Part shown: positions 14,979-61,692 of the stretch, piece by piece
How positions within the stretch are numbered: position 1 is the stretch's first letter
How the letters are laid out: every line of letters starts with the position of its first letter
NCBI RefSeq assembly: GCF_018389385.1
Contig: NZ_CP062698.1
Span: 2,917,501 to 2,981,500 of the forward strand
Reading direction: 5' to 3'
Origin: Anthocerotibacter panamensis C109
GTDB taxonomy: Bacteria > Cyanobacteriota > Cyanobacteriia > Gloeobacterales > Anthocerotibacteraceae
DNA length: 64,000 bases
Translations under genes and position numbers: made by a program
Notes under the pieces: model-generated
The model's input: only the letters and a program-made list of their open reading frames with translations
Databases searched by the model: none
What the model was told of the DNA's origin: nothing

Positions 14979-15464
14979 TCAGGTACTAGAGCTATCTAGA
15001 ACGGGCATTTCAGGGGTTCGGCTTTTAGGCAGGAGGGGGCGAGCAGGGACTCCGACTACCGTTTGGCTGGGGAGAACATCACGAGTCACGACGGCATTTG
15101 CCCCAATCCGCGCGCCATTGCCGATAAACAGGCTTTGGTTTTCTTTGGTGAGCACTACCGCTCCCGCTCCAATTTGGACGTCATCGCCAATGACAATTCG
15201 ATGCTCAGACCCGACCCAAGTGGTTGCGGCAAGGGTCACATGCTGGTGGATGAGGACGCGCCGACCGATTTTCACATTGGGATGAATGACCACCCCGAGG
15301 CCATAGTGTTCTAGGCGGATATCTGATTCGATTTGCGCCTGATAGGGCAGGATCGTGTGAAATAGAAAAAAGTTGGTGGTTTTAAGCAGTTGGGCGAGAG
15401 GCGCTAGGTTGCTACGGTAGGCTTGACAGCTCCACCACCATAGAGCTTCTGGACACAATCTCAT
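14979..15464 (-). CDS. hexapeptide-repeat acetyltransferase (CysE/serine-acetyltransferase-like)
   Basis: 161 aa from the ATG at 15464, which overlaps the upstream stop as ATGA. A longer frame to 15506 would overlap the upstream GT by 46 bp, so the shorter start is preferred. Left-handed beta-helix repeats are visible (GVVIHPNVKIGRRVLIHQHV, RIVIGDDVQIGAGAVVL, LFIGNGARIGANAVVTRDV), ending in the TVVGVPARPL cap. The H of VLIHQHV fits the catalytic His region of the CysE-type fold. In this context it most likely O-acetylates a sugar rather than serine. Confidence 0.88.
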   Translation of the reverse strand: MRLCPEALWWWSCQAYRSNLAPLAQLLKTTNFFLFHTILPYQAQIESDIRLEHYGLGVVIHPNVKIGRRVLIHQHVTLAATTWVGSEHRIVIGDDVQIGAGAVVLTKENQSLFIGNGARIGANAVVTRDVLPSQTVVGVPARPLLPKSRTPEMPVLDSSST

Positions 15465-16609
15465 CGGGGTTCTACTCCACAACGCCTTTGGGGAGTGACG
15501 ACCCATTGGCGGTAAAGGGCTTCCAGTTTACGGATATTGGCTTCCCAGGTCAGGGAACGAGTCCGCTGCCAGCCGCCTTGGGCGATGCGTTGGCGTAGCG
15601 TGTAGTCATCCAGTAACCGTGTGAGGGCGCTGGTCATCGCCGGAGCATCCTCAAAATCGCACAGTAGCGCCTCTTCGCCATCGCGCAGTTCTGCCCCAAA
15701 ACCCGTGCGCGTCGTAACTGCTGCACACCCACAAGCCATCGCTTCGGCTAGAGCAATACCAAAGCCTTCGTATTGCGTGGGGAAGAAGAAGACTTGAGCG
15801 CGGGCTAATCCGTCAGCAAGATCTTTTTCGGGGAGGCGCGGGAAAACTTGAATGCGTGGATGCAGTTCAGCAGGAAATGCTGAGAGCACGACTGCGGGCG
15901 GCGTTCCTGCGCCATAGATGCTGAACTGAAGCTGTGGTCGCTCGCTTAAGAGCCCCGTCATCACCGGAATCAGCGTATCTACGCCTTTGCGCGCTATCCA
16001 GGAGCCCGTGAAGACAATGCGTTCTTCACGCTCCCCACGCCAAGGCACCGCCAGATATTCGGGGTCCAGGCCCGGTTCTACCACTGCTGTCCACTCCTCG
16101 GGATAATAACCCAGGTTCAAGACATGCTTGCGGTCCAGTTCGCAGAGGGCCACAAAAGCATCAGCAGAGGCAAAAGCCAGCGTGGAGAACCAATCGTGGC
16201 TCTTCTCAACCAAGTCGTGATAGAGACGTCCGAGCGGAGCCAGAGGAGCAGGCGTGTAAGACCGTTCCCGAGCCGTCGCCAGCATCTCCAGACCATTGGT
16301 ATGAGCAACCAGGAAGGGCCGTCGGGGGCGTTGTGATAATTGCCAGATCGAGGGGCCAAATTCATCGCCATAAAATTCCATCAGATCCACTGGTTGAGCT
16401 TTGAGCTTGGCGTGGATGAGCGACCAAGCACCCCCAGCGAGGCGGACTTTACTGGCACGGCGTAGTGAGCGCCACCACTCATAGTCTTTGGGCTCACTGA
16501 CCTCGACGGTGTGACCCAAAGAACGCAGCCCCCCAGTGTAGTTTAGGACGGTTTTCCCGGAACCGGAGCGCGGGTCGAGCGGGCTATTGGTGAAGGCTAG
16601 GATGTACAT
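15461..16609 (-). CDS. GT4-family glycosyltransferase
   Basis: 382 aa. The ATG at 16609 shares a base with the preceding TAA (TAATG). The N-terminal half has SGSGKTVLNYTGGLRSLGH, and the FLVAHTNGLEM motif marks the acceptor side. The C-terminal half has EGFGIALAEAMACGCAAVTT (EX7E). It lies between two hexapeptide acetyltransferase genes and is coupled to both. This suggests the sugar it adds, or a neighbouring one, is acetylated; that is inference. Confidence 0.93.
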   Translation of the reverse strand: MYILAFTNSPLDPRSGSGKTVLNYTGGLRSLGHTVEVSEPKDYEWWRSLRRASKVRLAGGAWSLIHAKLKAQPVDLMEFYGDEFGPSIWQLSQRPRRPFLVAHTNGLEMLATARERSYTPAPLAPLGRLYHDLVEKSHDWFSTLAFASADAFVALCELDRKHVLNLGYYPEEWTAVVEPGLDPEYLAVPWRGEREERIVFTGSWIARKGVDTLIPVMTGLLSERPQLQFSIYGAGTPPAVVLSAFPAELHPRIQVFPRLPEKDLADGLARAQVFFFPTQYEGFGIALAEAMACGCAAVTTRTGFGAELRDGEEALLCDFEDAPAMTSALTRLLDDYTLRQRIAQGGWQRTRSLTWEANIRKLEALYRQWVVTPQRRCGVEPR

Positions 16610-47155: not shown

Positions 47156-48338
47156 ACGCTTCACTATCAGCTCTGTTCGACTCCTGCCGGGACTCAAGGT
47201 GGCGGTGGTCCATGACTTTTTGGCGGACTACGGCGGGGCGGAGCGGGTCCTTGAAGGGTTTTTGGACCTGTTCCCGCAGGCGGATCTCTTTGTCCTGCAC
47301 CACGACCCACGGGGGATTCCGCCGCACCTCAATGGTCGCGTCAGTGCGGTCACGGACTTGTCCCGGTTGATCCTCAGGCTCAAGGCGGACCATCGGGTTT
47401 TTGCGCCGCTCTTTCCTTTTGCGATCGAGCAGTTTGACTTCAGCCGCTACGACTTGATCCTCTCGAGCAGCTATTTCTGCGCCAAAGCGGTCCTCAAGCC
47501 TTCGACAGCCTGCCATATTTCCTACTGTCATACGCCTTTTCGTCAGGTCTGGGACCGCTATCATGACTACTGCCGCCAATTTCAGAATCCGCTCACCCGC
47601 TCGGTCTTCCGTCTGTTTGCCCATTACTTTCGGGTCTGGGATGTGTGTGCGACGCAGGGCGTGGACGCTTTTTTGGCCTGCTCCCAAAAAGTGGCTACCC
47701 GCATCGAAGCGACCTATCAAAGGCAGGCTCAGGTCCTCTATCCCCCGGTGGACCTCCCACCTGTGAGTAGCGCGCTACCGTCGGTGCTGGTCTCCAAGCA
47801 CTATTTTTTATGTATCTCCCGTCTGCTCAACACCTACAAGCGCATTGACTTGGCGATTCAGGCCATTGCGCAGGTCGAGGGCTATCAATTGGTAATCGTG
47901 GGTACAGGCCCGGATGAGGCGGACCTCAAGCGTCTGGCTGGGGAGCGCACGGTCTTTTGGGGGGCGGTCACAGACTCTGGACTCAAGGCGACGCTCCTCG
48001 CTCATGCCCGCGCCCTGGTCATCCCCGGCGAGGAGGACTTTGGTATTGTCGCCCTCGAAGCTATGGCCTGCGGTACTCCCGTCATCGCCCATCGCAAAAG
48101 TGGCGCAGCGGAAATCCTGCGAGAGGGCTGGACGGGTCTTTTATTCGAGGAGTGCACGGTAGCGGCGGTTACTCAGGCGCTGCAAAAAGTGGTCGCCCAC
48201 CCCGGATTTAATGCCGAGGAGGGCCGTCGGGTCGCTCAACAGTACAGTCGGGCGTGTTTTGAGCAGGCGCTGGATGGCTATATTGCGCGGGTGCTGACCG
48301 ATTTTCGGGAGCGCAAGCGCCGCTCTTTTGCACTGTGA
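47145..48338 (+). CDS. GT4-family glycosyltransferase
   Basis: 397 aa from ATG 47145, the first Met after the reading frame leaves the polymerase gene; a much longer frame (to 46827) is only a shadow. VAVVHDFLADYGGAERVLEG and ISYCHTPFRQVWDRYHDY match the protein at 4376-5542, as does EDFGIVALEAMACGTPVIAH (EX7E). The two proteins are counterparts in the two clusters. Confidence 0.94.
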   Translation: MVSERFTISSVRLLPGLKVAVVHDFLADYGGAERVLEGFLDLFPQADLFVLHHDPRGIPPHLNGRVSAVTDLSRLILRLKADHRVFAPLFPFAIEQFDFSRYDLILSSSYFCAKAVLKPSTACHISYCHTPFRQVWDRYHDYCRQFQNPLTRSVFRLFAHYFRVWDVCATQGVDAFLACSQKVATRIEATYQRQAQVLYPPVDLPPVSSALPSVLVSKHYFLCISRLLNTYKRIDLAIQAIAQVEGYQLVIVGTGPDEADLKRLAGERTVFWGAVTDSGLKATLLAHARALVIPGEEDFGIVALEAMACGTPVIAHRKSGAAEILREGWTGLLFEECTVAAVTQALQKVVAHPGFNAEEGRRVAQQYSRACFEQALDGYIARVLTDFRERKRRSFAL

Positions 48339-48347
48339 GGTCTTGCT

Positions 48348-49466
48348 GTGCGGGTTCTGTTTGTGAATCACACCGCCCAACTCGGCGGGGCTGAACACTG
48401 TCTAATAGACCTGGCGGGGATTTTGGGGGAAGGCTGTCGCGTGGCGCTCCTCAGCGACGGGCCGCTGCGTCACCGTTTGGAGTCTGTAGGGTGTGCCGTG
48501 CAGGTGCTCCGGGGTTCGCAGGGGCTCGACCGGGTACGCAAACAGGCCGGACTCGGGGCTTTAGGAGCAGCTATCCCCGCTGTTCTGACCGATGTCCGGG
48601 CGGTAGCTGGGGCGTCCGCCGCGGCGGACCTCATTTGGGCTAATACCCACAAGGCTTTTGTTGTAAGTGCTTTGGCTGGACGGCTCGCACGCAAACCCGT
48701 CGTTTACCACCTCCACGACATGCTGGACCGGGGGCATTTCAGTTGGGGCAACCGCAAGGGGATGGTGCTGCTCGCCAATACCCTAGCCCACCGCGTCGTC
48801 GCCAACTCCCTAGCCACCGCCCAATCTTTTAAGGCCCTGGGAGGACGCCCCGCGCTGGTGGAAATCCTCTATAACGGATTTGCTTTTGAAGCTATCGTCC
48901 CTTTGTCCCGCCCGAGAGACCAGCGCTTTTTGGTCGGGCTCTTTAGTCGGCTCACCCACTGGAAGGGGCAACATGTCCTGCTCGATGCCCTCGCTCGTCT
49001 CGATGCACGGTTCCATGGCCTGCTGGTCGGGGATGCCCTTTTTGCTGAAGACCATCGCTATCTAGAGCAACTCCGGCAACAGGTCCATGACTTGGGGTTG
49101 ACGCAGCGGGTGCACTTTTTGGGCTATCGGGCCGATGCCCGCGCGCTGATGGCGACTTGTGATGCCCTGGTCCATTGTTCGGTCCTGCCTGAAGCCTTTG
49201 GGCGCGTGGTGGTGGAGGGCATGGCAACCGGACGGCCCGTGGTGGCTGTTGGGGCCGGAGGGGTACCCGAGATTCTCGAAGACGGGCGCACTGGGCTTTT
49301 GGTCCCGCCCAACGACGCGCTTGCGCTTGCGCTTGCGCTTGCCCGCCTCCAAGCTGACCCGCAACAGGCCCAAGCTTTGGGCGAGGCGGGACGACAGTCC
49401 GTCCGACAGCGTTTTGACCTAAGTCAGACCCAGCAAGCTCTTGAGCGTATTTTGGGCACGGCTTAG
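48348..49466 (+). CDS. GT4-family glycosyltransferase (GGAE type)
   Basis: 372 aa, GTG start nine bases after the previous gene. VLFVNHTAQLGGAEHCLIDL and EAFGRVVVEGMATGRPVVAV (EX7E). Counterpart of the protein at 5539-6708. Near the C-terminus, the DNA contains short gcttgc repeats (about 49319-49340) that encode an Ala-Leu run. Glycosyl donor unknown. Confidence 0.93.
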   Translation: MRVLFVNHTAQLGGAEHCLIDLAGILGEGCRVALLSDGPLRHRLESVGCAVQVLRGSQGLDRVRKQAGLGALGAAIPAVLTDVRAVAGASAAADLIWANTHKAFVVSALAGRLARKPVVYHLHDMLDRGHFSWGNRKGMVLLANTLAHRVVANSLATAQSFKALGGRPALVEILYNGFAFEAIVPLSRPRDQRFLVGLFSRLTHWKGQHVLLDALARLDARFHGLLVGDALFAEDHRYLEQLRQQVHDLGLTQRVHFLGYRADARALMATCDALVHCSVLPEAFGRVVVEGMATGRPVVAVGAGGVPEILEDGRTGLLVPPNDALALALALARLQADPQQAQALGEAGRQSVRQRFDLSQTQQALERILGTA

Positions 49467-49509
49467 TATCCTTGATCCCCCGTCTGTGTCCCAAACCACG
49501 AGGCCACCG

Positions 49510-50277
49510 ATGCAACAACGCACCTCTGTCGACCTGGAAGCCTATATGCGTACTTTGATCACGGGTCTGGACTGCGCCTCCGCAGAGCTCATCCAGTATC
49601 AGATCATTTTGGAGCGCAGGCTGACCTTGCCTTTGATCCAGGAACTGATTGTCCTCTACGACCTCACCCAGCGCTATCAACGGGAGTTGAATGCTCGGGC
49701 AGGCAAAGCTATGGCTGCCCTGGGCCAGGAGATCCGCCTGACGCTGACCCACCGGGGGGTCCAACTCTTTTTGAACACTGTGATTCTGGAAAATACCATG
49801 CCCGACCCCACTGTCGATGTCCGCCTGGAGGCCCATGTACGCTCCCTAGAACAAGCCCTAGACCGGGCTTTCACCGAATTAGCCGAGTACCGTGCCCTGA
49901 TGGAGCGGCAGTTGACCCTACCTTTGATCCAAGACCTGATTGCCCTTTACCACCTGTGCTATCACTACCGCATCGAGTTTATCGGCGAGCGCAAAGCCAC
50001 CCGAGCGCTGGAGGTGATGGGGGCGGAAGTCCTCAATGTCCTGGCGCGCAAAGGAGTTGTCCCCCTTGAGGTCCGCCCCGGTCAACTTCTAGACCGCTCT
50101 GCCCAATGCCCGGTCGGGGTCGAGCCCTGTAGCGCTCCTAGCGAAGATTTGCAGATTGTCGCGGTACAACGCCCCGGATTTACCAGTCCCGAGGGGGTCT
50201 TGGCAAAGGCTGAGGTCATTGTCAAGCGCTTCACCACCGCGCCGGAAGCCCTCTTGAGTACCACGGGAGAATCCTGA
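49510..50277 (+). CDS. GrpE-like nucleotide-exchange-factor relative with duplicated helical segment
   Basis: 255 aa from ATG 49510; the frame runs further up into the previous gene. Two internal repeats of about 85 residues (7-95 and 102-190) share LERRLTLPLIQELIVLYDLT versus MERQLTLPLIQDLIALYHLC. The C-terminus resembles the GrpE beta-domain (ARKGVVPLEVRPGQ, LQIVAVQRPGFTSPEGVL, AEVIVKRF), which binds the Hsp70 nucleotide-binding domain. Overlaps the Hsp70 gene as ATGA, so the two are translated together. The assignment rests on pattern and context, not on a strong family match. Confidence 0.7.
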   Translation: MQQRTSVDLEAYMRTLITGLDCASAELIQYQIILERRLTLPLIQELIVLYDLTQRYQRELNARAGKAMAALGQEIRLTLTHRGVQLFLNTVILENTMPDPTVDVRLEAHVRSLEQALDRAFTELAEYRALMERQLTLPLIQDLIALYHLCYHYRIEFIGERKATRALEVMGAEVLNVLARKGVVPLEVRPGQLLDRSAQCPVGVEPCSAPSEDLQIVAVQRPGFTSPEGVLAKAEVIVKRFTTAPEALLSTTGES

Positions 50278-51824
50278 TGACTACCGTCGTCGGCATCGAT
50301 CTCGGCACTACCAACTCCGCCCTTGCCTATGTCAACACCTACGGCAAGCCCGAGGTCATCCCCAACAGCGAGGGCGAGCGCATCACCCCTTCGGTGGTCT
50401 TTTTTGATGGCGATCTAGTCATTGTCGGTCAGACAGCCCTGGAGGCAGCAGTCACCCACCCCCAGGCTGTCGTCGCGGGGATCAAGCGGCAGATGGGCAA
50501 AGGGGAGTTTAGCTACACCGCCCCGTCCGGTCAGGGCTACTCCCCAGAGCAGATTTCGGCCTTTATCCTCAAAAAATTGAAGCAGGACGCCGAGCAGACC
50601 CTCGGTCCCCTCAGCGACTGTGTGATCACGGTGCCTGCCTATTTCGACGATCTGCGCCGCCGCGCCACTATTGCCGCTGGGGAACTTGCTGGCTGGAAGG
50701 TGCTCCATGTCCTCAACGAACCCACGGCGGCGGCGGTCTGCTACGGGCTCACGCAGGCGGGGCTAGACCAGACCCTCCTAGTCTACGACTTGGGGGGCGG
50801 GACCTTTGATGTCACTGTGCTCAAGGTCGTGGGGAGTTCCGTCATTGTCCTTGCCACGGGGGGAAATCCTTTGCTGGGGGGCAGAGATTTTGACCAACTC
50901 TTGGTGGACCACTGCCGGGAAGCCTTTATAGAACAGACCGGCGTGGACCCCAGTGATGACCCGTCCACCCACAATGACTGGCTGCGGCGGGTGGAGCGCG
51001 CCAAGCGTGACCTGAGCCAGCGCCAGCGCACCAGCGTCGCCTTGAGTGGCGGCGGTCACACGACGCGCATCGACCTCACTCGGGCACAATTTGAAGCCAG
51101 CGCGAGCGCTCTTTTAGCCGAGACGCTCGACTTGTGCGAGGAAACCCTCAGCGAATGCCGTCTGGGTTGGCAGGACCTGGACTTGGTCTTGTTGGTGGGC
51201 GGGTCCACACGAATGCCGATGGTCACCCAACTCATCACCGGCTTGACGGGCAAACCACCCCACACCCCGGTCAACCCCGACGAGGCCGTGGCTTTGGGGG
51301 CGGCCCTAACCGCCGTGTCCGAGGCCATCCGCCAACACCCAGAGGCGGTCAAGAGCCTCAACGGGATGACTGAGACCATGGCCTTGCGCCTAGGAGGGCG
51401 GACCCGCATCGAAGATGTCACCTCCCACAGCCTGGGCATCCTCGCCTATGTCGGCCCCCACGCCATCCACGACATCCTGGTACCTAAAAATACCCCCGTT
51501 CCTGTTGAGATCAAGCGCCAGTACAAAACCCAGTACGACAATCAGGTCTCTCTGGAAGTCCCGATCCTGCAAGGAGAAGCGACCGACCCGGCGCTGTGTG
51601 TGCGCTTGGGCGAGCTGCGCATAGAGGGTCTACCCCCACGCCCAGAAGGAGCCCCGGTCCAGGTCACGATGCGCTATACCCGTGACGGCACCGTCGAAGT
51701 CGAAGCCCTCGATATCCAAGCCAACAAACAGGCACGCGCGCGCATTGACCGCAGCAAGCAGGGGCTCGACCCCCGGCAACTCGCCCAGGCTCAGGTCGAA
51801 ATGGCGCACCTTCAAGTCGAGTAA
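50277..51824 (+). CDS. Hsp70-family chaperone lacking most of the C-terminal lid
   Basis: 515 aa, shorter than typical DnaK (about 630). Starts at 50277 within the stop of the previous gene. Nucleotide-binding domain complete: VVGIDLGTTNSALAYV, VITVPAYFDDLRRRAT, LLVYDLGGGTFDVTVLK, LLVGGSTRMPMV. The interdomain linker, usually DVLLLDVTPLSLG, reads RIEDVTSHSLG, so the hydrophobic Leu run needed for allostery in DnaK is missing. The beta substrate domain is present (DNQVSLEVPILQGEATD) but the helical lid is reduced to about 40 residues. Not the housekeeping DnaK. Confidence 0.9.
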   Translation: MTTVVGIDLGTTNSALAYVNTYGKPEVIPNSEGERITPSVVFFDGDLVIVGQTALEAAVTHPQAVVAGIKRQMGKGEFSYTAPSGQGYSPEQISAFILKKLKQDAEQTLGPLSDCVITVPAYFDDLRRRATIAAGELAGWKVLHVLNEPTAAAVCYGLTQAGLDQTLLVYDLGGGTFDVTVLKVVGSSVIVLATGGNPLLGGRDFDQLLVDHCREAFIEQTGVDPSDDPSTHNDWLRRVERAKRDLSQRQRTSVALSGGGHTTRIDLTRAQFEASASALLAETLDLCEETLSECRLGWQDLDLVLLVGGSTRMPMVTQLITGLTGKPPHTPVNPDEAVALGAALTAVSEAIRQHPEAVKSLNGMTETMALRLGGRTRIEDVTSHSLGILAYVGPHAIHDILVPKNTPVPVEIKRQYKTQYDNQVSLEVPILQGEATDPALCVRLGELRIEGLPPRPEGAPVQVTMRYTRDGTVEVEALDIQANKQARARIDRSKQGLDPRQLAQAQVEMAHLQVE

Positions 51825-51830
51825 GCGCCC

Positions 51831-52238
51831 ATGCGCTCCTCCGACCTGTATACCCTGCTGGGCCTATCCCCCAAGGCCACCGCCCAGCAGATCGAGGAGC
51901 GCATCCGCGAGCGGTTGAGCGCGGCACGGCGGATGGTCCTACAACCGGGCCAGCAAGAGCAGGCGGGCCTGCTGATCCAGCAATTGCGCGAGGCGCGGTT
52001 AATACTGCTCGACCCGCTCCAGCGCGCCCGCTATGACACCGCTCGGCTGAGAGCGATGACGCAACTGGCCCCGCCCCCTACACGCCCCGCCCCCAAGCCG
52101 TCTCAGTCCCCCGTTTGGGTCAAGCAAGGCAGAGCGCAGTCAGAACGACTGCGACGGGTCTTGCAGCAGATTGGGCCTTTCGGGTTATTCCTGGCGGGTT
52201 TTTTGCTCGGTTGGATCATCGGGATAAACACCCCGTGA
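51831..52238 (+). CDS. J-domain-like protein without HPD, C-terminal membrane anchor
   Basis: 135 aa, ATG start six bases after the Hsp70 gene. Residues 6-66 follow the J-domain pattern (LYTLLGLSPKATAQQIEERI ... LREARLILLDPLQRARYD), but the loop that should hold His-Pro-Asp reads RLSAARRMVL, so HPD is absent. A Pro-rich linker precedes a hydrophobic helix near 115-132 (FGLFLAGFLLGWIIGI). The product would be a J-like protein bound to the inner membrane. It might recruit the Hsp70 without stimulating its ATPase. Confidence 0.75.
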   Translation: MRSSDLYTLLGLSPKATAQQIEERIRERLSAARRMVLQPGQQEQAGLLIQQLREARLILLDPLQRARYDTARLRAMTQLAPPPTRPAPKPSQSPVWVKQGRAQSERLRRVLQQIGPFGLFLAGFLLGWIIGINTP

Positions 52239-52276
52239 GGGTCATGTCATCCCCATCCTCTATCTAAGGCACCCCC

Positions 52277-53515
52277 ATGACCAAAAAGCGTGAATCGTTT
52301 CTGGTGTTTGGGGCTCCCACCCTGGGAGCCGCTGAAGTCCGCGAAGTCGTACACAGCCTGAAAAGTGGCTGGCTAGGGACCGGCCCTAAAGTAACGCGCT
52401 TTGAGGAGGACTTCAAAGCCTATAAAAAGGCAAACCATGCCATCGCCCTCAATTCCTGCACCGCCGCCCTCCACCTCAGCCTCCTCGCCGCAGGCGTGGG
52501 TCCGGGGGACGAAGTGATCACGACACCCTTGACTTTTTGCGCCACCATCAACGCCATTGTGCACACCGGGGCAACCCCGGTTTTGGCCGATGTTGACCCC
52601 CAGACCATGAACCTCGACCCCGCCCAAGTCGCAGCCAAAATCACCCCCCGGACGCGAGCCCTGGTCCCAGTCCACTTCGCAGGCCGCCCCTGCCCTATGG
52701 AGGAACTCCTCTGCCTAGCCCGCACCCACCATTTGACGGTCATCGAAGACTGCGCCCATGCCCTGGAGACGGAGTATCGAGGCCGTAAGGCCGGGACCTT
52801 GGGGGACTTTGGCTGCTTCAGCTTCTATGCCACCAAAAACATGACGACCGGGGAAGGGGGTATGATCCTGACTCCTGATGCCGAAGCTGCCGCGCGGCTG
52901 CGGCGGCTCGGTCTCCATGGCCTGAGCAAGGACGCCTGGAAACGCTTCGCAGATGAGGGCTACCAGCACTATCAGGTTTTAGAAGCAGGCTTTAAGTACA
53001 ACATGATGGACCTCCAGGCTGCCATCGGTCTGCACCAGCTACAGCGAATCGAGCGGCACTGGGAGCGCCGTCAGCAGCTCTGGCAGCGCTATATGGAGAT
53101 GCTGTCCTCCCTGCCCATCGGTCTTCCAGCCAGCCCAGAACCTGAAACCCGCCACGCCTATCACCTCTTCACTGTCCTCATTGAGGAAGCCAGGACCGGA
53201 GTCAGCCGGGATGCTTTTCTAGCAGCGATGGGCGAACGACGCATCGGGGTCGGGGTGCACTACCTGAGCGTCCCCGAACATGTTTTTTACCAGCAGACTT
53301 TTGGTTGGCGACCAGAAGACTATCCCCAGGCTCAGCGCATCGGCAGGCAGACGGTGAGCCTACCTTTCTCCCCCCGCCTAACTGACCAAGACATAGCTGA
53401 TGTCCTGGAGGCCGTCCGCTATAGTTTGGGCCTCCGCTTCCCCCGCTCGCTCAAAACCCTCCAGCGCGGGGCGGGCGTCAGCACCCGCGCCCGGTTAAAG
53501 ATTTCTCAAGGCTGA
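52277..53515 (+). CDS. DegT/DnrJ/EryC1/StrS-type sugar aminotransferase
   Basis: 412 aa, ATG start. PLP-dependent fold type I: NSCTAALHLSLLAAGVGPGD, VHFAGRPCPME, VIEDCAHALETEYRGRKAGT, and the PLP Lys187 in FSFYATKNMTTGEGGM. Dimer and substrate regions follow (FKYNMMDLQAAIGLHQLQRI). Transfers an amino group to a keto-NDP-sugar for the repeat unit. The last 30 residues are basic and Ser/Arg-rich, beyond the usual end. The nucleotide-sugar substrate is unknown; no dehydratase lies nearby. Confidence 0.94.
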   Translation: MTKKRESFLVFGAPTLGAAEVREVVHSLKSGWLGTGPKVTRFEEDFKAYKKANHAIALNSCTAALHLSLLAAGVGPGDEVITTPLTFCATINAIVHTGATPVLADVDPQTMNLDPAQVAAKITPRTRALVPVHFAGRPCPMEELLCLARTHHLTVIEDCAHALETEYRGRKAGTLGDFGCFSFYATKNMTTGEGGMILTPDAEAAARLRRLGLHGLSKDAWKRFADEGYQHYQVLEAGFKYNMMDLQAAIGLHQLQRIERHWERRQQLWQRYMEMLSSLPIGLPASPEPETRHAYHLFTVLIEEARTGVSRDAFLAAMGERRIGVGVHYLSVPEHVFYQQTFGWRPEDYPQAQRIGRQTVSLPFSPRLTDQDIADVLEAVRYSLGLRFPRSLKTLQRGAGVSTRARLKISQG

Positions 53516-53541
53516 AGGCTTCCTCCTGCCCGGTGAACGCT

Positions 53542-54654
53542 ATGCGAATCTTACATATCCTCAATGACCTCCATAACTTGGGCAACGGCATTGTCAACCA
53601 CGTAGTCGATCTCGCCATTGCCCAGCAGGCGAGCGGTCATCGGGTCACTGTCCTCTCCTCAGGAGGGGAACACGGGGCACTCCTGGCTGCCCACGGAGTC
53701 ACCCTCACCACCCTGCTGATGAACCGCACGCTCTGGCTCCAGCCGCTGCACATCGTTCAGGCCCTCCAGACCATCAACCACCAGATCGCACACTTCGATA
53801 TCGTCCACGCCCATATGATGAGCGGGTTACTCCTGGCTTATTCCGGCTGCCTGCGCCAAGGCATTCCCCTGATCGCCAGTATGCACAACTCCTGGCAGCA
53901 CCATGCCCGACTCATGCGCCTTGCGGACCATCTGATCGCCGGGAGTCAAGCAGTAGCCCAACAACTGTTTACCTGGGGCGTGAAGCCAGACCAAGTATCG
54001 GTGGTCGCTAATGGGACAGGTGGAACCTACCGCTATCAGGCGCTCCCCGCTGCGCCCGTCAGCGCCCTACCCGCAGGGCGCAGGGTCTTGACGGTGGCGG
54101 GGCTTTTTGACCGCAAGGGGATTCACATCCTGCTAGAGGCGGTTCCTCTCGTCGCTGCGGTCGTCCCTCAGGTGCGCTTCTGTATCGTTGGGGACGGCCC
54201 GGACCGCGCCCGCTATCAGCAAAAGGTCCAGGAAGCGGGGATTGGGCTGTGGGTCACCTTCTTGGGATTTCGCCCGCGCTTTGACAATCTGCTGCCCTTG
54301 GCGGAACTGCTCGTACACCCCCCGCTTGCCGACCCCGCGCCCTTGGTCATCCCCGAGACGCTGGCGGCAGGAATTCCGATTGTGGGGACATCCGTGGGGG
54401 GTATCCCCGAAGCGCTCGCCTTTGGGCAAGCCGGTCTACTCGTCCCCCCCGGCAATCCTCAAGCGCTCGCCAGCGCCGTACTCCAAGTCCTGACGGACCC
54501 GACTTTAGCTGCGACCCTCCAGCTACGTAGTCAAGAACGAGCCGCCTGCTATACCACCCAAGCCATGGCCGCCCAAACCGTGGCGGTTTACGAGAAGGTG
54601 CTGACCCGTGCTGTCTACGTCCCCCCGGCCCGACCTGCGCCCAAGAGCACTTGA
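53542..54654 (+). CDS. GT4-family glycosyltransferase with altered EX7E
   Basis: 370 aa from ATG 53542. ILHILNDLHNLGNGIVNHVV at the N-terminus; the paralogue at 58514 begins almost identically. In the donor half the EX7E block reads DPAPLVIPE, while the paralogue has EPFGLVLTE. The first Glu is Asp, and the Phe-Gly before the helix is replaced by Ala-Pro. Activity may be reduced or the specificity changed. Remaining motifs (SVGGIPEALAFGQAGLLV) are normal. Confidence 0.9.
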   Translation: MRILHILNDLHNLGNGIVNHVVDLAIAQQASGHRVTVLSSGGEHGALLAAHGVTLTTLLMNRTLWLQPLHIVQALQTINHQIAHFDIVHAHMMSGLLLAYSGCLRQGIPLIASMHNSWQHHARLMRLADHLIAGSQAVAQQLFTWGVKPDQVSVVANGTGGTYRYQALPAAPVSALPAGRRVLTVAGLFDRKGIHILLEAVPLVAAVVPQVRFCIVGDGPDRARYQQKVQEAGIGLWVTFLGFRPRFDNLLPLAELLVHPPLADPAPLVIPETLAAGIPIVGTSVGGIPEALAFGQAGLLVPPGNPQALASAVLQVLTDPTLAATLQLRSQERAACYTTQAMAAQTVAVYEKVLTRAVYVPPARPAPKST

Positions 54655-54683: not shown

Positions 54684-55820
54684 ATGCTGCGCCATGCAAC
54701 TGTCAGTTTATTTCTTCCTACCCTGGAGGGCGGCGGGGCCGAGCGGGCCATGCTGCATCTGGCCGAAGGTTTTACAGCGTGTGGCCTCAAGACCGACTTG
54801 ATCCTCGCTCAGGCCAAAGGGAAGTATCTCTCCATGGTGCCCGATGGAATACGGGTGATTGACCTACAGGCCCACGCCCCGGTCTTGCTCCGTAAAACCC
54901 TGGCCCTCCAGCGTTATCTACGGCGCGAGCGACCGGCGGTTTTGCTGACCACCCTCGATATCGTCAACGCAGCAGCCTGGGCACGTCGTATGGCCGGGGT
55001 CCCCACGCGGGTCGTCATGGTCGTACAGACGAATCTCTCCGCCCAATTCCGGGATTACACCGATGGCACCGGCTGGTTGCGGCCCCAACTGGTGAGGTGG
55101 TTTTACCCTTGGGCCGACCAGATCATCACGGCCTCTCAGGGAGTCGCAGAGGACCTAGCACAGATCTCCGGGCTACCCCTAGGCGAGATGCGGGTCATCT
55201 ACAACCCAGTGGTGACCCCCCGCTTTCTACAGATGGTGCAGCAGCCCGTACCGCACCCCTGGTTTGCTGCGGGGCAACCCCCGGTCATTCTGGGGGTGGG
55301 ACGGCTCGTCCGCCAAAAAGATTTCCCGACGCTGATCCGCAGTTTTGCCCAGATCCGACCACAGGTTCCTGCCCGTCTGGTGATCCTAGGCGAAGGGGAG
55401 GAGCGCGCCAACCTGGAGTTTTTGGTCCGCCAACTCGGTCTGACGGACGCGGTGGACCTGCCGGGATTTGTGGAAAACCCCTATGCCTATATGGCCCAGG
55501 CGTCGGTCTTCGCGCTCTCCTCGACCCACGAGGGCTTTGGCAACGTCGTAGCGGAAGCGCTAGGGGCAGGGACGGCGGTCGTCTCCACCGACTGCCCCAG
55601 TGGACCGGCAGAAATCCTAGGTTGGGGCCGCTACGGAACCTTAACGCCCGTCGGGGACGCCAGAGCGTTGGCCCAAGGGATTGTGCGGACCCTACAAAAA
55701 CCCCCAGGATCTGAAGGATTGCGCCAGCGTGCCCGAGCTTTTTCGCTGATGGCAATTGTCGAACAATACTGCGAGGTCCTCGAAAAACTCATGCAACAGC
55801 CCAAAGCAGGTTGGCGATGA
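54684..55820 (+). CDS. GT4-family glycosyltransferase (GGGAER type)
   Basis: 378 aa, ATG start. VSLFLPTLEGGGAERAMLHL at the acceptor side and EGFGNVVAEALGAGTAVVST (EX7E) with DCPSGPAEIL at the donor side, the pattern of GalNAc/GlcNAc-type GT4 enzymes (WbpH/PglJ-like), though specificity is inference. The stop overlaps the glycoside-hydrolase-like gene as ATGA. Confidence 0.94.
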   Translation: MLRHATVSLFLPTLEGGGAERAMLHLAEGFTACGLKTDLILAQAKGKYLSMVPDGIRVIDLQAHAPVLLRKTLALQRYLRRERPAVLLTTLDIVNAAAWARRMAGVPTRVVMVVQTNLSAQFRDYTDGTGWLRPQLVRWFYPWADQIITASQGVAEDLAQISGLPLGEMRVIYNPVVTPRFLQMVQQPVPHPWFAAGQPPVILGVGRLVRQKDFPTLIRSFAQIRPQVPARLVILGEGEERANLEFLVRQLGLTDAVDLPGFVENPYAYMAQASVFALSSTHEGFGNVVAEALGAGTAVVSTDCPSGPAEILGWGRYGTLTPVGDARALAQGIVRTLQKPPGSEGLRQRARAFSLMAIVEQYCEVLEKLMQQPKAGWR

Positions 55821-57085
55821 AGGGGCCTCTTCGCGTAGCCCTGGCGCTTCTGGGGCTCACAGCAGGTCTGCTAGGCAACGGATTACGCGCCCAGCCCGAG
55901 CAAGCCAGGAGTGCCGACAGCTTTGTGGATTCCGTCGGTGTGGCGGTGCACCTCCGGTTTTTGGATACTGCCTACGGCAACTACTACGGTCTCATCAAGC
56001 CCAAGCTACAAGAGTTGGGCGTGCGCCATATCCGCGATGGCGGAGACGACGCGCAGTTCTTCCAAAAGCTCAATGACCTGGCAGGTGTGGGCATCCGCTC
56101 CTTGTTGGTGATGGACCCACGCGACGGCATTGACCCGGCGCGGGCGGTGGCGATTGCCAAGACCGTAGCTCCTTCCATAGAAGCGGTCGAGCAGCCCAAC
56201 GAATATGACTTTTCCGGTGACCCCAACTGGGCAGCTACGCTCAAAAACTACGATGCCAGCCTCTGGACAGCATTCAAGTCAGACCCAGCGGTAGCCAGCC
56301 TACCGATGATTGGTACAGCCTTCGTCAGTTTTGATGCCACCAACACTGTCGGCGACCTCAGCCCCTATGTTGACTCCTCGAATATGCACCCGCTGCGTTA
56401 TTTCCCTCCCGATAACGACCAAAACAATGCCGCCCCCAACAATATCGCCGTCGAGGCTGCTTTTCGGGCTAAACCCTTCGGCAACAAGCCGATGTGGGCT
56501 TCGGAGACGAGCTACGACGCGGGCTGTCCCGGCTTGGGCAATGGCATCACCGAAGCCGCTCAAGGCAAGTACGTCCCGCGCTTCTTGTTGCAGTGGTTTA
56601 ACACCGGGCTGGTGCGTACTTATATTTATGAATTGATGGACGAGAAGCCGGACAACTGCACCAACGCCGAGCTGCACTTTGGGATCTTGCGCAACGATGG
56701 TTCCCCCAAGCCCGCCTTCACCGCCGTCAAAAACTTGCTTGCGCTCCTGCGCGATCCCGGCGTGCCCTTCAATCCCGGATCGCTGGACTACACCCTGTCG
56801 GGCAACACTACCAACTTGCGCCATACCCTGCTCCAAAAGCGAGACAGGAGCTTTTACTTAATCCTGTGGCAGGCAGCCAAAAGCTCATATTGGCCGGGGG
56901 AAGCCCGCTCGGGACAGGATATCTACGTCGCGCCCACCCAAGTCACCCTCACCCTCAACACCAAGATCACTCAGGCGACCACCTACCTGCCCAACACCTC
57001 CACCAATCCCACGGGGCAATACACCAAGCCGACGCAGATCAACCTGAGTGTGCCGGACTACCCACTGGTTCTAGCCCTTTTTTGA
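55817..57085 (+). CDS. secreted glycoside-hydrolase-like protein (clan GH-A type barrel)
   Basis: 422 aa from ATG 55817. The signal peptide covers about residues 1-24 (LRVALALLGLTAGLLGNGLR). A barrel-type catalytic domain follows. EQPNEYD has the Asn-Glu pair (N128, E129) of clan GH-A acid/base residues, and MWASETSYD (E230) matches a nucleophile-type Glu. The C-terminal beta-domain ends near 422. It is nearly identical in its first 120 mature residues to the protein at 59611-61692 but lacks the CARDB tail. May trim or transfer the secreted polymer outside the inner membrane. Confidence 0.85.
   Translation: MKGPLRVALALLGLTAGLLGNGLRAQPEQARSADSFVDSVGVAVHLRFLDTAYGNYYGLIKPKLQELGVRHIRDGGDDAQFFQKLNDLAGVGIRSLLVMDPRDGIDPARAVAIAKTVAPSIEAVEQPNEYDFSGDPNWAATLKNYDASLWTAFKSDPAVASLPMIGTAFVSFDATNTVGDLSPYVDSSNMHPLRYFPPDNDQNNAAPNNIAVEAAFRAKPFGNKPMWASETSYDAGCPGLGNGITEAAQGKYVPRFLLQWFNTGLVRTYIYELMDEKPDNCTNAELHFGILRNDGSPKPAFTAVKNLLALLRDPGVPFNPGSLDYTLSGNTTNLRHTLLQKRDRSFYLILWQAAKSSYWPGEARSGQDIYVAPTQVTLTLNTKITQATTYLPNTSTNPTGQYTKPTQINLSVPDYPLVLALF
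55972..56202. repeat. 231-bp perfect inverted repeat, left arm
   Basis: Base-for-base identical, in reverse complement, to 61256-61486. Both arms lie in the catalytic part of the glycoside-hydrolase-like genes. The segment between the arms is about 5.05 kb and contains the flippase and a glycosyltransferase. Confidence 0.95.
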
Positions 57086-58513: not shown

Positions 58514-59614
58514 ATGCGCATTTTGCATATCCTCAATGACCTGCGCAACCTGGGTAACGGCATTGTCAATCATGTCGTGGACCTCAGCATCGAGGAGCAA
58601 GCCCTAGGCCATCAGGTCACCATTCTCTCCTCAGGCGGGGAGTACGAGGCGCTTCTGGCTCAGCAAGGAGCTACCCTCAGCCCCTTGGTGATGAACCGCA
58701 GCCTATGGTTAAATCCAGGGCGGGTGCGCCGAGCCCTCCAACAGGTCAGCCGCCAGATCCGGGATTTTGATCTGGTTCACTGTCATATGGTGAGTGGCCT
58801 TTTGCTTGCCTATCCCGCCTGTCGGTGGCATGGCATTCCTTTAATAGCGACGGTCCACAATTCTTGGCAGACCCATGCCCGCTTGATGGGGCTTGCGCAT
58901 CAGATCATCGCTGTCAGTCAGGCAGTAGCGCGGGAGGTCCAGACTTGGGGCGTCGCCTCAGACCGGGTGGCTGTAGTCAAAAATGGCACCGTCGGTACCC
59001 TGCGCTACCGGTCTACCCCCGCCGCCGGGACCCCGGCACGCCCCCCCGGTGTCCGCCGAGTCTTGACCATTGCCGGACTCTTTGAGCGTAAGGGCATTCA
59101 TATCCTCTTGGAGGCTGTGCCTCGGGTCATCGCTCGGATACCGCAGGCGCAGTTTTGTCTGGCGGGGGATGGCCCGGACCGCTTGCGTTTTGAAGCGATG
59201 GTCCGGGACTTGGGTATTGGTCGCTGGGTGTCGTTTTGGGGCTTTCAGCCACGGGTGGACCAACTGCTGCTCACCGTAGACCTGCTGGTCCATCCTGCGC
59301 TGCAAGAGCCTTTCGGATTGGTGCTGACCGAGACGATGGCGGCCGGAGTCCCCATCGTGGCTACGGCGGTAGATGGCATTCCCGAAGTGCTCGCAGGCGG
59401 TAAGGCGGGGCTTTTGGTCCCGCCGCGCGACCCCAAAGCTTTGGCGGAGGGCATCCTCACCCTCTTAGGGAATCCCGCCCTGTGTACAGAATTTTCCCAG
59501 CGCGGACGGGCGGAAGCCCTGCACTATGCCACCGGGCGGATGGCTGCTGAAACCCTGACAGTCTATGAACGAGCCTTAGCCCGCGCCAAGCGCCCGCTCA
59601 AGGTCGCAGGCTAG
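58514..59614 (+). CDS. GT4-family glycosyltransferase
   Basis: 366 aa from ATG 58514. ILHILNDLRNLGNGIVNHVV and LERKGIHILLEAVP as in the paralogue at 53542-54654, but with an intact EX7E (EPFGLVLTETMAAGVPIVAT). The stop codon overlaps the convergent gene's stop at CTAG (59611-59614). No terminator lies between them. Confidence 0.94.
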   Translation: MRILHILNDLRNLGNGIVNHVVDLSIEEQALGHQVTILSSGGEYEALLAQQGATLSPLVMNRSLWLNPGRVRRALQQVSRQIRDFDLVHCHMVSGLLLAYPACRWHGIPLIATVHNSWQTHARLMGLAHQIIAVSQAVAREVQTWGVASDRVAVVKNGTVGTLRYRSTPAAGTPARPPGVRRVLTIAGLFERKGIHILLEAVPRVIARIPQAQFCLAGDGPDRLRFEAMVRDLGIGRWVSFWGFQPRVDQLLLTVDLLVHPALQEPFGLVLTETMAAGVPIVATAVDGIPEVLAGGKAGLLVPPRDPKALAEGILTLLGNPALCTEFSQRGRAEALHYATGRMAAETLTVYERALARAKRPLKVAG

Positions 59615-61692
59615 GGCTTGCTCGTCAGGGTCTGGTTGAGGGTGTTGTTGGTCTCGTTGCTTTCGGGGATGCGGTTGACATCATCGACCCAGGCTTCGAT
59701 ATTGTGGGTGCCCGCTACAGCGCTCCAGGGGAAGTTGGCGGTGAGGGTCACCGAAGCGCCAGGAGCGAGGCTGGCGGTGTTGGTGTCCGAGTAGGTCAAG
59801 AGTGCGCCATTGGCGGTACTGCGGTCCCGAAAAGCGACCCCGATGATTGTCCCGGCAGGAGTGGCAATGGTGCCCTGGTTCTTGACTACTGCCGTGAAGG
59901 TGACTGGGCTACCGGGGGTGAGGCTGGCAGCTTGGTACCCGGTGCTGGTGACCACGAGGTCTGGTTTCCCGGACGGTGGGGGGGTGTTACTGACTGTGAG
60001 GGTCTGGTTGAGGGTGTTGTTGGTCTCGTTGCTTTCGGGGATGCGGTTGACATCATCGACCCAGGCTTCGACATTGTGGGTGCCCAAGGTGGCACTCCAG
60101 GGGAAGTTGGCGGTGAGGGTCACCGAAGCACCAGGAGCGAGGCTGGCGGTGTTGGTGTCCGAGTAGGTCAAGAGTGCGCCATTGGCGGTACTGCGGTCCC
60201 GAAAAGCGACCCCGATGATTGTCCCGGCAGGGGTAGCCGTGGCACCTTGGTTCTTGACTACTGCCGTGAAGGTGACTGGGCTACCGGGGGTGAGGCTGGC
60301 AGCTTGGTACCCGGTGCTGGAGATCAAGAGGTCTGGCTGCCCCCCAGACGCAGGTGGAGGCGGGGCGGAGGAAGGGCTAAGTTTAACCACCAAAGGGTAG
60401 TCCGGCACGTTCAGGTTGATCTGCGTCGGGTTGGTGAATTGCCCGGTGGAATTGGTGGAGGTGTTGGGCAGGTAGGTGGTCGCCTGAGTGATGCGCGTAG
60501 CCAGGTTCAGGGTGACTTGGGTGGGCGCGACGTAGATATCCTGTCCCGAGCGGGCTTCCCCCGGCCAATATGAGCTTTTGGCTGCCTGCCACAGGATTAA
60601 GTAAAAGCTCCCGTCACTTTTCTGGAGCAGGGTATGGCGCAGGTTGGTAGTGTTGCCCGACAGGGTGTAGTCCAGAGAACCCGGTGTGAACTTGGCTCCC
60701 GGTTCTTTTAACAGGGCGAGCAGGTTCTTGACGGCAGTGAAGGCGGGCTTGGGGGAACCATCGTTGTGCAAGATCCCGTAGTGGTACTCCGGTTCCGTGC
60801 AGTTGTCCGGCTTCTCGTCGATAAACTCATAAATATAGGTGCGCACCAGCCCCGTATTGAACCATTGGAGGTAGAAGCGCGGGACGTACTTGCCTTGAGC
60901 GGCTTCGGTGATGCCGGTACCTACGCCGGGGCAACCTGCGTCATAGCCCGTCTCCGAAGCCCACATCGGCTTGTTGCCGAAGGGTTTAGCCCGAAAAGCA
61001 GTCTCGACGGCGATATTGTTGGGGGCGGCATTGTTTTGGTCGTTATCGGGAGGGAAATAACGCAGCGGGTGCATATTCGAGAAGTCAACATAGGGGCTGA
61101 GGTCGCCGACAGTGTTGGTGGCATCAAAAGTGACGAAGGCTGTGCCAATCATCGGTAGGTTGGCTACCGCCGGGTCTGACTTGAACGCTGCTCGCAGGCT
61201 GGCATCGTAGTTTTTGAGGGTGGTGCGCCAGTTGGAGTCGCCGGAGATATCGTACTCGTTGGGCTGCTCGACCGCTTCTATGGAAGGAGCTACGGTCTTG
61301 GCAATCGCCACCGCCCGCGCCGGGTCAATGCCGTCGCGTGGGTCCATCACCAACAAGGAGCGGATGCCCACACCTGCCAGGTCATTGAGCTTTTGGAAGA
61401 ACTGCGCGTCGTCTCCGCCATCGCGGATATGGCGCACGCCCAACTCTTGTAGCTTGGGCTTGATGAGACCGTAGTAGTTGCCGTAGACGGTGTCCGTATA
61501 GCGCAAGTGCACCGCCACACCGACGGAATCCACAAAGCTGTCGGCACTCCTGGCTCGCTCGGGGGCTGCCTGTGCCATCGGATTCATGAGGCCCAGCAGA
61601 CCCATAGCCATCAGCGAAAGCCAAATCTTCGACCCACTGTGACTCCCTCGCTCCGACTTATCTCGGTGGCCCACTCGATGAAAAATCTGCAT
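59611..61692 (-). CDS. secreted glycoside-hydrolase-like protein with two CARDB domains
   Basis: 693 aa, ATG at 61692, signal peptide about residues 20-42 (IWLSLMAMGLLGLMNPMAQA). The catalytic domain is like that at 55817-57085: EQPNEYDISGDSNW and MWASETGYDAGCPG hold the GH-A type Glu residues. After a Pro-rich spacer (SPSSAPPPPASGG), two nearly identical CARDB adhesion-type domains of 124 residues follow (about 445-690; TPGSPVTFTAVVKNQG, EAWVDDVNRIPESNETNNT). The tail could anchor the enzyme to extracellular polymer. Opposite in orientation to the operon it follows. Confidence 0.88.
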   Translation of the reverse strand: MQIFHRVGHRDKSERGSHSGSKIWLSLMAMGLLGLMNPMAQAAPERARSADSFVDSVGVAVHLRYTDTVYGNYYGLIKPKLQELGVRHIRDGGDDAQFFQKLNDLAGVGIRSLLVMDPRDGIDPARAVAIAKTVAPSIEAVEQPNEYDISGDSNWRTTLKNYDASLRAAFKSDPAVANLPMIGTAFVTFDATNTVGDLSPYVDFSNMHPLRYFPPDNDQNNAAPNNIAVETAFRAKPFGNKPMWASETGYDAGCPGVGTGITEAAQGKYVPRFYLQWFNTGLVRTYIYEFIDEKPDNCTEPEYHYGILHNDGSPKPAFTAVKNLLALLKEPGAKFTPGSLDYTLSGNTTNLRHTLLQKSDGSFYLILWQAAKSSYWPGEARSGQDIYVAPTQVTLNLATRITQATTYLPNTSTNSTGQFTNPTQINLNVPDYPLVVKLSPSSAPPPPASGGQPDLLISSTGYQAASLTPGSPVTFTAVVKNQGATATPAGTIIGVAFRDRSTANGALLTYSDTNTASLAPGASVTLTANFPWSATLGTHNVEAWVDDVNRIPESNETNNTLNQTLTVSNTPPPSGKPDLVVTSTGYQAASLTPGSPVTFTAVVKNQGTIATPAGTIIGVAFRDRSTANGALLTYSDTNTASLAPGASVTLTANFPWSAVAGTHNIEAWVDDVNRIPESNETNNTLNQTLTSKP
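59629..60372. repeat. two 372-bp tandem repeats encoding CARDB domains
   Basis: Units 59629-60000 and 60001-60372 are nearly identical at nucleotide level (for example the whole stretch encoding GTIIGVAFRDRSTANGALLT). 372 is a multiple of three, so the number of domains could change by recombination without frame loss. Identity this high suggests a recent duplication or gene conversion. Confidence 0.9.
61256..61486. repeat. 231-bp perfect inverted repeat, right arm
   Basis: Reverse complement of 55972-56202 without mismatch. Outside the arms the two genes fall to lower identity, so the arm borders are sharp. Confidence 0.95.

Follow-up and report, generated by a model that had tools for sequence, protein, structure and literature searches.

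The HPD motif is regarded as the hallmark of J proteins, which form the canonical Hsp70 system together with DnaK and GrpE. According to the excerpts of published work on which we draw here and below, many prokaryotes carry Hsp70s beyond DnaK (PMC11019930), Escherichia coli HscC is inferred by a review not to use GrpE (PMC8215388), the canonical DnaK1/DnaJ3/GrpE of Nostoc punctiforme are required for hormogonium polysaccharide, with a link to type IV pili (PMC9239167), and HSP70, GrpE and DnaJ- or TPR-bearing proteins are described in GAP1-N2 conflict neighbourhoods (Kaur et al. 2020, PMC7159879). Here, we describe three adjoining genes of the cyanobacterium Anthocerotibacter panamensis, encoding a GrpE-like protein, an Hsp70 and a J-like protein in that order and all on the + strand, within a window of 64,000 nucleotides (positions 2917501-2981500 of a genome of 4,187,797 bases in one contig). 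The window Hsp70 almost certainly belongs to a non-canonical family that keeps the ATPase residues but has lost, largely together, the contact between HPD and Arg167, the loop bearing the GrpE signature, the hydrophobic linker and, in most members, the lid.

The GrpE-like gene (49510..50277) encodes 255 amino acids, an extra N-terminal copy of the helical part followed by a complete GrpE-like unit, and starts with the ATG at 49510, upstream of which the frame stays open to a TTG at 49441. It is joined by a one-base overlap (TGATG) to the gene of the lidless Hsp70 (50277..51824, 515 amino acids), and 6 bases separate the latter from the J-like gene, which lacks HPD (51831..52238, 135 amino acids). 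An earlier reading of these letters, hereafter the sequence-only reading, had all three genes coupled through ATGA, which is wrong; its description of the products, namely a duplicated helical part in the GrpE-like protein, an Hsp70 with an altered linker and no lid, and a J-like protein that lacks HPD and has a membrane-like segment, agrees with the measurements given below.

The joint departure from the canonical contacts is best seen across the family. Arg167 (E. coli DnaK numbering, used throughout for DnaK positions) is replaced in 40 of 45 family Hsp70s, window included, and kept in 76 of 76 controls, and HPD is missing from 28 of the 29 J proteins beside family Hsp70s, again with the window, and present in all 60 control J proteins. 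In the window protein and in 40 of the 41 family members compared, the loop where DnaK carries its GrpE signature has 22 residues; in 67 of the 79 controls it has 28. The tail past the position that corresponds to window residue 490 is at most 51 residues in 39/45 family Hsp70s and at least 125 in 73/76 controls, and the linker region follows the pattern (N/D)V(N/T)(S/A)HSLG, which in the window reads DVTSHSLG and stands together with the short loop and an HPD-less J neighbour. All 41 members, and the window protein too, retain K70, P143, R151, E171, T199 and D201, and by a simple hydropathy rule 24 of the 28 J-like proteins are predicted to have a membrane segment (locus L225 left out). These counts refer to 45 Hsp70s including that of the window, hence 44 other loci, with 41 members in the loop and ATPase comparison; its 79 controls became 76 when L054, L055 and L058 were later moved to the family. 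Left out are L242 and L243 (actinomycete, grouped with DnaK in the tree and neighboured by HPD J proteins), L051, L040 and L046 (short cyanobacterial type) and the planctomycete genomes G861 and G888. Three cyanobacterial relatives (L255-L257) are kept outside the family counts and reported separately; they carry Asp, Asp and Ser at position 167.

In phylogenetic trees, the window Hsp70 falls in the family clade at 100/100, apart from DnaK and from the cyanobacterial short Hsp70s, and this support persists once E. coli HscC is added, which falls outside. As parent groups, the cyanobacterial short Hsp70 loci were ruled out by tree, linker and loop, and HscC by the tree, where it is represented by one sequence on a long branch. 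Members occur in four phyla or more (Planctomycetota, Cyanobacteriota, Actinomycetota and Bacillota) and, of the three phyla that were sampled, most often in Planctomycetota: 38 of 246 planctomycete genomes matched the window Hsp70 at E <= 1e-97. The strongest of these 38 matches, a frame of 516 residues, scored 431 bits and covered residues 4-512, and the 36 that were entered in the tree all lie inside the family. A draw of 388 Cyanobacteriia genomes gave matches in 3 of the 387 others (383, 372 and 343 bits), and a Rhodococcus plasmid match of 380 bits is adjoined by GrpE and by an HPD-less J-TPR-membrane protein. No member was listed when 386 genomes of the phylum were searched, the top other match being a 625-residue frame at 313 bits, and among 296 genomes of Actinomycetota three matches were obtained, two of them DnaK and the third in the genome on which the search was centred. 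Because 3 to 6 candidates were scored per genome in these phylum, class, Actinomycetota and Planctomycetota searches, and because the last two were centred on genomes picked for already having a match, the absences are not firm and the frequencies are rough. The patchy distribution suggests transfer, with no donor shown. The family is not named in the open-licence literature searched, and it may already sit inside the catch-all group of extra prokaryotic Hsp70s mentioned above.

The window protein belongs to the Hsp70 superfamily by its Pfam HSP70 score of 408 bits, and reaches only 402.1 bits on the NCBIfam DnaK equivalog model, far under the cut-off of 648. It keeps K70, E171, T199 and D201 of the ATPase as well as D393, and lacks a DnaK-type lid, with 25 residues after residue 490. 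In alignment with E. coli DnaK, His144 (50706..50708, + strand) takes the place of Arg167, the same change as in a published suppressor, R167H in DnaK, of the DnaJ mutation D35N (PMC5519331, citing Suh et al. 1998). The shortened loop at the site of the GrpE signature (51030..51062, + strand) appears as a deletion in the same alignment. The interdomain linker VLLLD of DnaK (389-393) aligns, after an insert, with T376-R-I-E-D380 (TRIED; 51402..51416, + strand), followed by VTSHSLG, so that R and I replace L390 and L391; further along, Y391 stands for M404 and Q419 for A429, and D211 has no counterpart, I replaces E217 and E replaces D326. We take R167, D211, E217, D326, L390 and L391 of DnaK to be J-binding positions. 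The protein is 41-43% identical to three full-length DnaK-like proteins of the same genome. A cyanobacterial short-type Hsp70 also lies in this genome, at about 849.4-850.9 kb (G000:C1; L044:5487-6904, - strand), with its N-terminal part missing and its C-terminal part out of frame; it looks broken, or else affected by a sequencing error.

For the J-like protein, the Pfam DnaJ model gives 21.8 bits, under the cut-off of 27.8, and a family hidden Markov model (HMM), seeded with twelve HPD-less J-like neighbours, gives 29-30 bits. The J-like domain (residues 5-70; 51843..52040, + strand) contains no HPD. A hydrophobic stretch near residues 114-132 (52170..52226, + strand) is predicted as a C-terminal membrane segment, with a value of 2.05 in a 19-residue Kyte-Doolittle window and a helix at 116-131 in a part of the model that is of low confidence. 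Overall, the model has a mean pLDDT (predicted local distance difference test) of 83.3 and resembles J domains, for example 6rzy at a template modelling (TM) score of 0.86 by target length. A J-domain structural match, whose absence the sequence-only reading had named as refuting, is suggested but not firm: the top Foldseek matches are mostly J domains, none of them with an E value as low as 0.001, and the input alignment of the model included J sequences.

The GrpE-like protein scores 23.5 bits with Pfam GrpE over residues 167-239, just under the cut-off of 25.8, and 65.4 bits with a family HMM built on seven GrpE-like proteins encoded next to planctomycete Hsp70s. The latter match falls into two domains, one of 10.0 bits at residues 39-86 and one of 53.5 bits at residues 113-241. 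Its helical part is duplicated: residues 7-84 (49528..49761, + strand) align with residues 104-183 (49819..50058, + strand) with 35 identities in 80 columns and a score of 154, against 28.6 +/- 5.0 for shuffled sequences, a score reached by 0 of 2000. A single GrpE-type beta domain follows (about residues 184-241; 50059..50232, + strand), delimited by modelled strands between 199 and 241 and by the end of the family HMM match at 241. The AlphaFold2 model (mean pLDDT 80.8) contains this beta domain, and the expected structural match to GrpE was found, the best 12 Foldseek matches in the PDB all being GrpE (E 4.2e-6 to 3.9e-3, the next being 1.2). Since canonical relatives were present in the alignments fed to both models, the structural matches of the GrpE-like and J-like proteins serve as consistency checks. 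The repeat suggests a fused, single-chain pseudo-dimer. In the model, however, copy 1 forms one long helix (22-94, block pLDDT 64-81) and no hairpin, and the input alignment is poor there; the single-chain dimer idea is neither supported nor settled by this. The extra helical copy is peculiar to the window protein among 16 family GrpE-like proteins and is absent from those of the three cyanobacterial relatives (0/3). With the GrpE-like protein alone as query, no orthologue was retrieved from 291 other genomes of the phylum, nor from separate collections of genome contigs and of plasmids; the protein is too divergent.

Around the other family Hsp70s, an HPD-less J-like gene is found at 27 of 44 loci, always on the Hsp70 strand and in 25 cases within 350 bases; 12 of these genes are the HMM seeds and 15 were retrieved by the HMM. 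No J protein was found at 16/44 family loci and 16/76 control loci. A GrpE hit occurs at 15 of the 44, and the same neighbours recur in planctomycetes and actinomycetes, so that the refuting case named by the sequence-only reading, no relative with the three genes side by side, did not occur. In the three cyanobacterial relatives, a GrpE gene precedes Hsp70, and in two of them a divergent gene after Hsp70 starts J-like by eye, with support from neither HMM nor Pfam. Several loci carry additional domains. FHA-GAF-SpoIIE and FHA-GAF-HATPase proteins lie beside the module at L214, an FHA protein at L203 and a protein kinase at L204, and the HPD-less J-like protein at L218:7783-8817 contains an MshEN domain, presumably linked to cyclic-di-GMP. 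Large proteins with a CHAT protease domain (Pfam) are encoded downstream of the module in two cyanobacteria (L255:5040-7931 and L256:12011-14842), and a vWA domain is fused to the C-terminus of the family Hsp70 in a planctomycete (L224:5187-7280) and in Metabacillus (L054:6001-8061). In another cyanobacterium, L041 (G304:C1:830000-847000) holds a row of Hsp70-like genes, a transposase-like open reading frame (by eye) and a trypsin-like protease; two more frames are vWA-like by eye, of which 15334-16212 was scanned and gave no match to Pfam.

Taken together, the trio looks like a real, unstudied kind of machine that is not polysaccharide-specific. The reading we prefer, with a probability of about one half, is that of a patchily spread non-canonical Hsp70 machine, an ATP-driven and membrane-tethered assembly switch that bypasses the HPD contact and that is placed, in this genome, in an exopolysaccharide (EPS) operon. 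The J-like protein would tether the Hsp70 to the cytoplasmic membrane and would govern the nucleotide cycle of the latter by contacts that do not involve HPD and Arg167. Lacking a lid, the Hsp70 would hold its clients loosely, in the beta domain only, which would suit an ATP-driven assembly or conformational switch acting on one membrane complex rather than a refolding machine, and the GrpE-like protein would reset it through a contact outside the canonical loop. That the switch at the membrane would be HPD-independent has slightly less than an even chance. More tentatively, the trio may represent a separate class of Hsp70 machine, with ATP hydrolysis under an HPD-free, membrane-anchored J protein and GrpE reset via another surface, the window GrpE being a single-chain pseudo-dimer whose one beta wing would fit one Hsp70.

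Several observations weigh against this reading. Five of the 45 family Hsp70s keep Arg167 (L221, L224, L050, L054 and L055), and since L221 and L050 do so beside HPD-less J-like proteins, the two losses are not strictly coupled. Long C-terminal extensions occur in 6/45, two of which are the vWA domains, and L225 has HPD proteins in place of an HPD-less J-like protein. Of the HPD-less neighbours counted, 12 had served as seeds of the J HMM, which also retrieves HPD proteins in controls. All three genes occur together at only 11 of the 44 other loci, in stretches of 5.8-18 kb. The window Hsp70 lies on a long branch, and the 100/100 support covers its family membership and not its position inside the family. 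Finally, the EPS context is not conserved across family loci.

A rather unlikely alternative is a signalling or conflict-response module, in which the Hsp70 machine would act as the gate of a membrane sensor or effector, its place in the EPS cluster being incidental. The FHA-GAF, FHA, kinase and MshEN domains at L214, L203, L204 and L218 and the CHAT proteins at L255 and L256 point to signalling or a stress response; the vWA fusions at L224 and L054 and the HSP70-GrpE-DnaJ/TPR genes of GAP1-N2 neighbourhoods (PMC7159879) would fit as well. These neighbours were, however, scanned in a handful of chosen loci, the flanking genes scanned in the window match polysaccharide families and not effectors, and a known defence system was ruled against by PADLOC, which gave no hit for the trio.

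An unlikely reading is that of a dedicated polysaccharide chaperone, with assembly or regulation of the EPS export machinery as the function for which the trio evolved. The placement of the trio within an exopolysaccharide cluster, as first described, is confirmed by the Pfam families of its same-strand neighbours. It lies inside a Wza/Wzc/Wzy/Wzx-type gene run with nucleotidyl transferase, Poly_export/SLBB, Wzz/GNVR, GT4s, sulfatase, Wzy_C, DegT aminotransferase and Polysacc_synt, and is spaced like part of an operon, with a 43-base gap from the flanking glycosyltransferase gene, the two junctions given above and a 38-base gap to the aminotransferase gene. Its guanine-cytosine content (59-64% per kilobase) is similar to that of neighbouring genes. 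A consensus scan of 48200-53700 (sigma-70 type only) found a sole promoter-like site, on the minus strand and at chance level (1.2 expected), which counts in favour of this reading, as does the Nostoc precedent (PMC9239167). That precedent, however, is a canonical system, and it takes away the novelty that the sequence-only reading had claimed for an Hsp70 system serving polysaccharide. Moreover, a phmmer search with 14 window EPS proteins gave matches at 2/44 family loci and 2/76 control loci, and none at the loci of the three cyanobacterial relatives (0/3), so the question raised by the sequence-only reading, whether the trio always sits in polysaccharide clusters, is answered in the negative, and its operon placement is an argument for this genome only. 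What survives of the earlier view is a real non-canonical set whose J-like protein usually has a membrane-like segment; the conserved tie to polysaccharide does not. The Wza/Wzc/Wzy/Wzx assembly would be the likeliest client in the window only because of the operon-like spacing, and EPS assembly as the client of this machine is doubtful.

The flanking genes were also searched in 12 relatives, where the aminotransferase had a 70% match in one and the best match of the glycosyltransferase was 46%. A paralogue of the DegT aminotransferase after the trio (52277-53515), 68% identical to it, lies elsewhere in this genome (G000:C1:3744402-3745541). Further along the window, two very similar, secreted-looking open reading frames (SADSFVDSVGVAVHLR...) lie in opposite orientation at 55811-57085 (+) and 59611-61692 (-), the first without a Pfam match and the second with added CARDB repeats.

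It is improbable that the protein is a spare canonical chaperone that works like DnaK alongside other HPD J proteins of the cell, its neighbours being accessory: the intact ATPase residues and the 41-43% identity to the genome's own three full-length DnaK-like proteins would agree with this, but R167, D211, E217, D326, L390 and L391, the positions we assume to bind J proteins, are all changed. A decaying DnaK operon without function, suggested by the sub-threshold Pfam scores of the J-like and GrpE-like proteins, is hardly credible in view of the open frames, the intact catalytic residues and the same departures kept across phyla.

The observation itself is right and holds more generally than first described, the polysaccharide-specific interpretation is weak, and an HPD-independent cycle is the claim worth testing. 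A family whose J-like partners mostly lack HPD and most of whose Hsp70s lack the target arginine offers a natural test of an alternative Hsp70 trigger, and the DnaK annotation of such proteins would need revision.

Among the known systems, the cyanobacterial short Hsp70 loci (L051, L040 and L046) resemble the trio in having a short Hsp70 that adjoins GrpE, with a short DnaJ-annotated gene lacking HPD also present at L051, but they have a canonical-type linker, a 28-residue GrpE loop and Gln at position 167, and form a separate clade. Pam18 is a J protein that carries HPD. Its pseudo-J partner Pam16, as described in the excerpt cited, is comparable to the J-like protein in that its J domain is degenerate and belongs to an Hsp70 motor of a membrane (PMC13254874); Pam16, however, pairs with Pam18, whereas no HPD gene adjoins the window trio. 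GAP1-N2 neighbourhoods, compared by description only, likewise combine an HSP70 with GrpE and a DnaJ/TPR protein, mainly in actinobacteria and firmicutes (PMC7159879). E. coli HscC with DjlB/DjlC is a specialised Hsp70 with specialised J partners, and lacks both the 76-101 stretch, which is missing from many other DnaKs too, and the GrpE signature (PMC8215388 and alignment); it differs in that HscC keeps Arg167, DjlC keeps HPD and HscC lies outside the family clade. DnaK1/DnaJ3/GrpE of Nostoc are likewise a cyanobacterial Hsp70 system tied to polysaccharide production (PMC9239167), but of the DnaK type, whereas the window Hsp70 lies outside the DnaK clade in a genome with three separate full-length DnaK-like proteins. 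With the canonical DnaK-DnaJ-GrpE system, the trio has the Hsp70 and GrpE folds, a probable J fold and the ATPase residues in common, its Hsp70 being 41-43% identical to the DnaKs of its own genome, and it departs from that system through a J-like protein without HPD, His in place of Arg167, a short GrpE-signature loop, TRIED as linker and an Hsp70 without a lid.

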